Of a stretch of 64,000 nt of DNA, positions 5,842 to 6,735 are shown piece after piece; position 1 is the stretch's first letter, and each line of letters starts with the position of its first letter. The notes beneath the pieces were generated by a model. That model searched no databases. It was given only the letters and a program-made list of their open reading frames with translations, and was not told the DNA's origin. This DNA comes from Chryseolinea sp. H1M3-3 (GTDB lineage Bacteria; Bacteroidota; Bacteroidia; Cytophagales; Cyclobacteriaceae), in assembly GCF_029360725.1 (NCBI RefSeq), contig NZ_JARKMY010000018.1, forward strand, positions 62,001-126,000. The letters are read 5' to 3'. The position numbers and the translations under genes are program-made.

Positions 5842-5964
5842 ATGTTTAGGAAGATAAAAAGGCTTTACGAAGAATATAAGCCTTATGTACGAGTAGACCT
5901 GATTATGTATGGTGTGTTAATCCTTTCAATTATACTTTATTTCATTTTCAGTACAATATTTTAA
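5842..5964 (+). CDS. 40-residue single-pass membrane peptide
   Basis: A complete ATG-to-TAA frame of 40 residues. The first 19 residues are basic and aromatic (MFRKIKRLYEEYKPYVRVD), the rest is one hydrophobic helix (about 20-39, YGVLILSIILYFIF) running to the C-terminus. This is a convincing small membrane protein layout, positive-inside, with no cleavable signal. A -7 like element lies just upstream and the gene is divergent from the TonB receptor operon. Function unknown; I do not recognise a named family. It is below usual annotation cut-offs. Confidence 0.55.
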   Translation: MFRKIKRLYEEYKPYVRVDLIMYGVLILSIILYFIFSTIF

Positions 5965-5984
5965 GATCTTAATGAAAAAAAAAA

Positions 5985-6010
5985 GCCATTATCCAGGCGG
6001 AGATAATGGC
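5985..6010 (-). terminator. Rho-independent terminator of the short-protein unit
   Basis: Perfect 9-bp stem GCCATTATC / GATAATGGC with an 8-nt loop. On the minus strand it is followed at once by a run of ten T. It ends transcription coming from the two short minus-strand genes at 6330-6067. Confidence 0.8.
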
Positions 6011-6066
6011 CAAAATGGAAATTGATAATGCAGTTCTGCACCCTCATTTCCAAATGATCGTTGTAT

Positions 6067-6141
6067 TTACAATTGTGCGGCTAAATTCAATAAACCGTAT
6101 GTTAACATCATTGAAATGACAATTCTTAACAGGGTTTTCAT
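6067..6141 (-). CDS. 24-residue hydrophobic peptide
   Basis: ATG at 6141 to TAA, 24 residues: a basic start (MKTLLR) followed by one hydrophobic stretch of about 17 residues. It lies 12 bp after the stop of the 58-residue gene and before a strong terminator, so it would be translated from the same short transcript. It could be a tiny membrane peptide, or a chance frame in a 3' untranslated region. Length alone gives little support; position and hydrophobic layout are the reasons for listing it. Confidence 0.35.
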   Translation of the reverse strand: MKTLLRIVISMMLTYGLLNLAAQL

Positions 6142-6153
6142 ATCGATGAGTTG

Positions 6154-6330
6154 TTAAAAGGTTTTTAAAATTTTCATTAAATCCAGGATTTCTTGTCGAC
6201 TCTTGCCTATTCGTCGAAGCAATAGTTCATCCATGGCTCCCTCTTTTCTGCTGTTATCTAAAGCAAATGCACGTGCTGATTGATAAGTAGTTGCGTTTTG
6301 GCGTTGGTTTTTTTTAAATAAATTTTTCAT
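6154..6330 (-). CDS. 58-residue basic soluble protein
   Basis: ATG at 6330 to TAA, 58 residues. The N-terminal third is basic and Asn/Gln-rich (MKNLFKKNQRQNATTY); the rest is helical with alternating charge (DNSRKEGAMDELLLRR, GKSRQEILDLMKILK). No membrane segment or signal peptide. It has a candidate promoter about 104 bp upstream and, with the 24-residue frame behind it, ends at a strong terminator, so it forms its own small transcription unit. Function unknown; no family recognised. Confidence 0.55.
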   Translation of the reverse strand: MKNLFKKNQRQNATTYQSARAFALDNSRKEGAMDELLLRRIGKSRQEILDLMKILKTF

Positions 6331-6433
6331 ACAGGCCTCGGTTTAAGGTTAAATGCTGTTGGTTTTAAAGGCCTTCGAAATAATAATGCCTGTTTATCAA
6401 GATGGCGTTCTCTTTTCGTAATTCATTGAATTA

Positions 6434-6466
6434 CAAATTTATAGTCCTCAAAAAAAATTAATGCAA
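6434..6466 (-). promoter_or_regulatory. Candidate Bacteroidota promoter for the 58-residue gene
   Basis: Reading the minus strand, TTG at 6466-6464 is followed after 22 bp by TAAATTTG at 6441-6434, an exact TAnnTTTG -7 element. The spacing is at the long end of the usual range. It would give a leader of roughly 100 nt before the ATG at 6330. Confidence 0.45.
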
Positions 6467-6527
6467 CTTGGAAGTTGGTAGAAAATTCTCCACACTGTGG
6501 TGAGGATCACATTTATAGACATAAAAA

Positions 6528-6570: not shown

Positions 6571-6735
6571 TCAAACAGTAACTCTTTTCGATTGTGGCTC
6601 GGGTAATGGGGAATGCTTCAATTCTACATCGTCGTCATCAATCTTGGGGAAGAATATTTTGGCAAGCTTAACCGCGATGATGACGAATATGCCATAAGCA
6701 AGCAAGAAAGACAGTATGATAATGAATAAGTCCAT
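6571..6735 (-). CDS. 54-residue membrane peptide
   Basis: ATG at 6735 to TGA, 54 residues. One hydrophobic helix (about 2-25, FIIILSFLLAYGIFVIIAV) starts almost at the N-terminus, followed by a polar tail with an acidic patch (KIDDDDVE) and a proline-rich, basic end. The layout is that of a small bitopic inner-membrane protein. A terminator lies directly downstream; no convincing promoter was found upstream. Function unknown. Confidence 0.6.
   Translation of the reverse strand: MDLFIIILSFLLAYGIFVIIAVKLAKIFFPKIDDDDVELKHSPLPEPQSKRVTV

Follow-up and report, generated by a model that had tools for sequence, protein, structure and literature searches.

What do two short, closely spaced reading frames on the minus strand of a Chryseolinea genome encode, and how are they expressed? 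The window, that is, the whole stretch of 64,000 nt that was analysed (Chryseolinea sp. H1M3-3, GCF_029360725.1, NZ_JARKMY010000018.1 positions 62,001-126,000), contains frames of 58 and 24 residues separated by 12 bp, as described in an earlier note, which had proposed a self-contained transcription unit for small regulatory or stress peptides, or an RNA with coding capacity. Along the minus strand, the order is TTG (6466-6464), TAAATTTG (6441-6434), the 58-aa frame, the 24-aa frame, a hairpin and ten T (Table 1). Small-protein genes of such size are easily missed by gene finders. The preferred reading, with a probability of roughly 0.6, is that this bicistronic unit is a reduced, genus-specific paralogue of a YtxH-CsbD-type stress operon, either derived from it or parallel to it.

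Table 1. Elements of the unit and its two flanking genes, in window coordinates
Feature	Position	Strand	Remarks
Flanking upstream gene, 54-aa membrane-like protein	6571..6735	-	synteny marker, outside the unit
TGTGGAGAATTTTCTACC, imperfect palindrome, candidate activator (enhancer-binding protein) site	6477..6494	-	TGT[G/A]GA motif in 5/5 genomes
TTG-N22-TAAATTTG, promoter proposed first	6434..6466	-	present; probably not the one used
GGCATTATTATTTC, sigma54-like -24/-12 element	6377..6390	-	GGCAT[T/C]ATTATTT[C/G] in 5/5 genomes with the unit
58-aa protein, ATG start	6154..6330	-	invariant C-terminal pattern RxGKSxxEIxDLMKILxTF
24-aa hydrophobic peptide (MKTLLRI...), ATG start, signal-peptide/membrane-like	6067..6141	-	orthologues in the same four genomes (G001-G004)
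Intrinsic terminator, hairpin with CCGCCT loop, then ten T	5974..6011	-	hairpin 6011-5984, T run 5983-5974
Flanking convergent gene, 40-aa membrane-like protein	5842..5964	+	synteny marker, outside the unit

The window's genome (G000) was compared with five other Chryseolinea genomes (G001-G005), including C. lacunae Jin1 (G002), C. serpens DSM 24574 (G003) and the Chryseolinea MAG CF_bin.38 (G004). Both frames are adjacent and syntenic in four of the five (G001-G004). When the 58-aa protein was searched in 59 genomes (the window's own, the five of the genus and 53 others), these four matched with E-values from 9.8e-19 to 8.5e-4, and matches outside the genus occurred in only 2 of the 53 genomes, with E of at least 0.1. 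A profile built from the five 58-aa proteins was run against 293 genomes, 287 of them outside the genus and six within it. It recovered the five genus proteins strongly and five further, weak matches outside the genus (E 0.007-0.02); no convincing relative of the unit was found among the 287. A scan of genome contigs with the single 58-aa protein found no relative, and with the alignment it returned three Chryseolinea records, namely G004, G003 and G002. For the 24-aa peptide, 10 of 98 genomes searched matched at E ≤ 10: five genus genomes with E ≤ 0.022 and the remaining ones with E of at least 0.87. The homologues over Cytophagales by which the earlier note proposed to check the unit were found within the genus; among the genomes searched, none that convinces was found beyond it.

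The differences between orthologues lie mostly at synonymous sites in both frames, and the synonymous/nonsynonymous ratio near one that the earlier note had named as a sign against genes is not observed. When the window is compared with G004, the 58-aa frame differs at 28 of 34.5 synonymous and 31 of 139.5 nonsynonymous sites (pN 0.22, pS 0.81), and the 24-aa frame at 11 of 16.2 and 3 of 55.8 (pN 0.05, pS 0.68). Between G001 and G003, the corresponding figures are 14.7/37.7 and 9.3/130.3 for the longer frame, and 5/17.7 and 2/45.3 for the shorter one. Only these two pairs are quoted, since synonymous sites have reached saturation in most of the others. In the window as in G004, the other two frames of the same strand are interrupted by stops. 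Both start codons and a gap of 12-15 bp are kept in each of the five genomes that have the unit. Judging from these substitution patterns, both frames are almost certainly genuine genes kept by selection. The same pattern refutes an RNA whose coding capacity is only incidental, which the earlier note had allowed for.

The unit sits between the 54-aa gene and the opposite-strand 40-aa gene, and a TonB-dependent receptor gene is next in the window. The 54-aa gene has a match in all six genus genomes; for the 40-aa gene, tblastn gave full-length matches of 80-88% identity in the equivalent region of each of G001-G005 (5/5). The two flanking proteins have no match in Pfam or NCBIfam, and they add two more small membrane-like protein genes kept in the six genus genomes. 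In G005, the two flanking genes and the receptor keep their order, and the unit is missing: neither frame, neither promoter element and no hairpin loop was found in the stretch between its 54-aa and 40-aa genes. Shortly after the 54-aa gene of G005, GGTGGAAAACTTTTGG stands roughly where the upstream site would be (L170). It is perhaps a remnant of that site, and would then speak for a loss of the unit from this genome.

The relation of the unit to ytxH is visible in G001, C. lacunae and C. serpens, where ytxH (97 aa; Pfam YtxH PF12732, E 9.5e-16) lies directly upstream of the two frames and the conserved promoter precedes ytxH. The 58-aa gene is thus placed directly after ytxH in 3/5 genomes; the locus has no ytxH in the window's genome and in CF_bin.38. 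The description of a compact two-protein unit stands, whereas its being self-contained does not always hold, since in three species the unit comes second, behind ytxH. Elsewhere in each of the five genomes with the unit, there is a separate operon of ytxH followed by csbD, confirmed by Pfam in the window's genome (YtxH, PF12732, E 2.9e-17; CsbD, PF05532, E 2.3e-19). This operon is preceded by TGGCATAATGTTTTC in 5/5 of these genomes, and a TGT[G/A]GAG site is found 60-72 bp before its promoter in G001-G004 (4/5); no such site can be recognised upstream of the ytxH-csbD operon in the window's own genome. In another genus (G028), ytxH-csbD is preceded by TGGCATCTTATTTTC together with a reversed copy of the upstream site. 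The pair of promoter and upstream site is absent from the third ytxH copies of G001-G003, as it is from the two ytxH loci in G005. Neither of these elements marks a regulon in general. The neighbourhood of ytxH-csbD in the window's genome (G000:C2:74000-92000) encodes, according to Pfam, OmpA/glycine-zipper, DUF892 and pyridoxamine-oxidase-like proteins, a low-affinity iron permease and topoisomerase IB. By eye, similar ORFs follow in the same order in C. serpens (G003:C9:628000-645000). Among the functions that had been suggested, stress peptides are the best-supported class, the evidence being the ytxH context and the shared promoter elements; from this context, the unit would have a stress role.

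Where ytxH precedes it, the 58-aa protein takes the position of CsbD. Membership of the CsbD family fails, as none of the five 58-aa-type proteins has a CsbD match in Pfam at E ≤ 1. All five have a GK[S/T][K/R]xE motif near the C-terminal end, and hhalign aligned 14 columns of the family with the CsbD C-terminus (probability 33%). Two of the five weak out-of-genus profile matches were read (L131 and L132, the other three being L130, L133 and L134): L132 is a CsbD protein (Pfam E 1.2e-14) aligned through its C-terminal part, and L131 is broken by stops. The L132 protein was removed from a local CsbD profile because its inclusion inflated the score (0-1 of 4000 shuffles). With the profile so reduced, the five proteins outscore all but 1-12 of 4000 shuffles each, at 6-8 bits. 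Common ancestry with CsbD is unproven, as YtxH proteins and other helical ORFs reach similar scores. The likeness of the C-terminus to that of CsbD is suggestive, and the chances that the protein originated from CsbD appear evenly balanced. NCBIfam gave only sub-threshold matches, the best being ParB-type with an E of 0.018, far below its cut-off. The predicted structure is one long helix (mean pLDDT 67.6, pTM 0.32), which was left out of a fold search as too uncertain.

The promoter proposed first, TTG-N22-TAAATTTG, is present with an acceptable spacing. Constitutive transcription of the same two genes by the primary Bacteroidota sigma factor could start there, with GGCAT serving as an operator or leader element. 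However, this site is conserved in none of the four orthologous upstream regions (G001-G004), where GGCAT[T/C]ATTATTT has a single variable position, and its class is at chance frequency: the window has seven TTG-N17-23-TANNTTTG sites, and 100 first-order Markov simulations gave 10.5 on average. Such constitutive expression is unlikely, and the proposed promoter was abandoned in favour of the sigma54-like site that is kept nearer the gene.

The window's genome has one sigma54 gene (PF04552 match, 192.4 bits). The GG expected at -24 of sigma54 promoters is found, GGCAT being present in 5/5 genomes at the locus and in 5/5 at the ytxH-csbD paralogue. The GC expected at -12, 10 bases after GG, is not found; T followed by C or G stands there in all eleven sites. 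The sigma54 consensus is given in PMC12316311 as TGGCAC-N5-7-TTGCT, and validated promoters departing from the consensus are also listed there. As the GG half fits but the -12 half is TTTC/TTTG where the consensus has TTGC, the element is called sigma54-like rather than filed as a member of the class. Sigma54-like control of the unit is likely. The candidate activator site starts 104 bp from the promoter GG in the window, 102 bp in G004 and 96 bp in G001, G003 and G002.

The reach of these elements was examined in larger sets of genomes. In six genus genomes, TTGGCATNATTATTTG occurs once in each of three, only at the unit's locus. Over 59 genomes, TGTGGAANNTTTTCC has 27 matches against 28 for the reversed control, and is no regulon mark; within the genus it has 10 against 3. 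Only three of the 27 loci, at the unit's locus, have GGCAT[T/C]ATTATTT about 95 bp downstream. For TGGCATNNTNTTTTC, 121 matches were found over 59 genomes, against 48 for the control; this excess is mostly coding sequence, since 24 of the 30 loci that were read overlap a long open frame, and 4/30 precede ytxH. A TGGCATNNTNTTTTC match in G005 is inside a long open frame. The two-element pattern has six matches in 390 genomes of the family, three of which are Chryseolinea ytxH operons. At L068 (G029:C23), around position 1500, GTGTGGAAATTTTTCCAC is followed about 60 bp downstream by TTGGCATAG, outside long open frames; this may be one more such site, in a different genus.

At the 3' end, a GC-containing hairpin is followed by a T run, as in intrinsic terminators. 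The terminator of the earlier note was recovered with its ten T, and with a stem of 11 pairs counting G-U instead of nine. A matching hairpin is present in 5/5 genomes with the unit and its CCGCCT loop is invariant. The 97-nt 3' fold is strong (z = -3.69), none of 200 shuffles folding as well. The loop pattern has 32 matches in six genomes, against 8 for the control; 30 of the 32 loci were read, and by eye only the five at the unit's locus are hairpins with a T run. These features would suit a unit that is mainly a regulatory RNA, with the CCGCCT loop as its seed and the peptides as secondary products. Against it stand the excess of synonymous differences in both frames, the fact that conserved terminator stems are ordinary, and a search of the whole window with Rfam, which returned no match. 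Covariation in the hairpin is weak, as there are only four distinct rows: two of nine pairs are changed on both sides, the covariation score is equalled or exceeded in 37 of 500 shuffles, and the number of doubly changed pairs in 189 of them. A unit acting mainly as RNA is very improbable; beside the coding function of the unit, the conserved 3' hairpin may have an additional role as RNA.

The second product is a peptide with a basic start and a hydrophobic core, with a mean hydropathy of 1.9-2.1 over 15 residues (1.9 for the 24-aa peptide of the window) and no match in NCBIfam. In G001-G004, the next frame after the 58-aa orthologue encodes an MKTLLRI... peptide of 21-24 aa, after a gap of 12-15 bp. 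The C. lacunae orthologue reads on to 57 aa (L005, minus strand 1482-1309): the core is followed by LTSC and then by 34 more residues. This LTSC fits a lipobox, and the 57-aa version is a putative lipoprotein. In the other four genomes, the peptide frame stops within two residues of the position of that cysteine.

By its length and hydrophobicity, the peptide resembles small membrane toxins of the Ibs/TisB type, and its distance of 12 bp from the upstream small protein might suggest a toxin-antitoxin or type I-like module. Each genome has a single strong match, however, in fixed synteny; the promoter elements are in common with the stress operon, and the C. lacunae peptide continues as the putative lipoprotein. 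A toxin is highly improbable. It could also be argued that the unit is in decay, being what is left of a csbD and a lipoprotein gene that were truncated and are being lost: two genomes have no ytxH at the locus, G005 lacks the whole unit, and the lipoprotein part is missing in 4/5. Decay is difficult to reconcile with a pN far lower than pS, seen in both frames and in both pairs of genomes, and with start codons and spacing intact in all five; it is most unlikely.

If the unit is a reduced YtxH-CsbD-type operon, it might function as follows. A stress signal would switch on an activator at TGTGGAGAATTTTCTACC, and the sigma54 RNA polymerase would start near 6365 from the GGCATTATTATTTC site, giving a predicted transcript of about 390 nt ending at the hairpin near 5975. 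The 58-aa product would occupy the operon position of CsbD and retain a possibly CsbD-like C-terminus, and the 24-aa peptide would probably stay in the inner membrane, as a signal peptide that is not cleaved does. In C. serpens, C. lacunae and G001, ytxH is still the first gene of the operon, whereas the locus lacks it in the window's species and in the CF_bin.38 MAG. A bolder proposal, which we regard as rather doubtful, is that the peptide is a lipoprotein signal peptide that has lost its cargo and is now a free-standing membrane peptide of 21-24 aa, expressed together with a half-protein derived from CsbD, both under a sigma54-like stress promoter. If true, the free-standing peptide would be functional alone, for example in sensing or buffering inner-membrane stress.

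The locus adds two selected small-protein genes tied to a YtxH-CsbD-type operon. For a genus of Bacteroidota, it also provides a specific sigma54-like promoter together with an upstream site; sigma54 regulation outside Pseudomonadota is described as less explored in PMC12316311. A literature search joining YtxH and sigma54 found nothing. Finally, the orthologues form a natural series, from a putative lipoprotein in one species to a bare signal-peptide-like peptide in four, in which one can ask whether a signal peptide may have a function by itself.

The unit is ordinary in kind and new in detail. The 24-aa peptide has the basic start and hydrophobic core of Bacteroidota lipoprotein signal peptides, with LTSC next in C. 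lacunae; unlike them, it stops near the position of the cysteine in 4/5 genomes and is conserved by itself. The 58-aa protein shares with the CsbD family, exemplified by YjbJ, its small size, its charge, the C-terminal GK[S/T][K/R]xE motif and the stress context, but is devoid of the conserved N-terminal half (GxWNExKGKLKQKxxxLTDxDL in local CsbD copies). YjbJ of Salmonella is tabulated as CsbD-like among sigmaS-controlled small proteins in PMC5437024. With the YtxH-CsbD operon of the genus, the unit has in common a similar sigma54-like promoter (GGCAT...TTT), a related TGT[G/A]GAG site in 4/5, and, in three species, ytxH as first gene with a small protein second. It differs from that operon by a 56-58-aa protein, without the CsbD N-terminal half, in place of CsbD, by an extra membrane-like peptide, by the absence of ytxH in two species, and by the spacing of the upstream site, which is 96-104 bp in the unit and 60-72 bp in the YtxH-CsbD operon.
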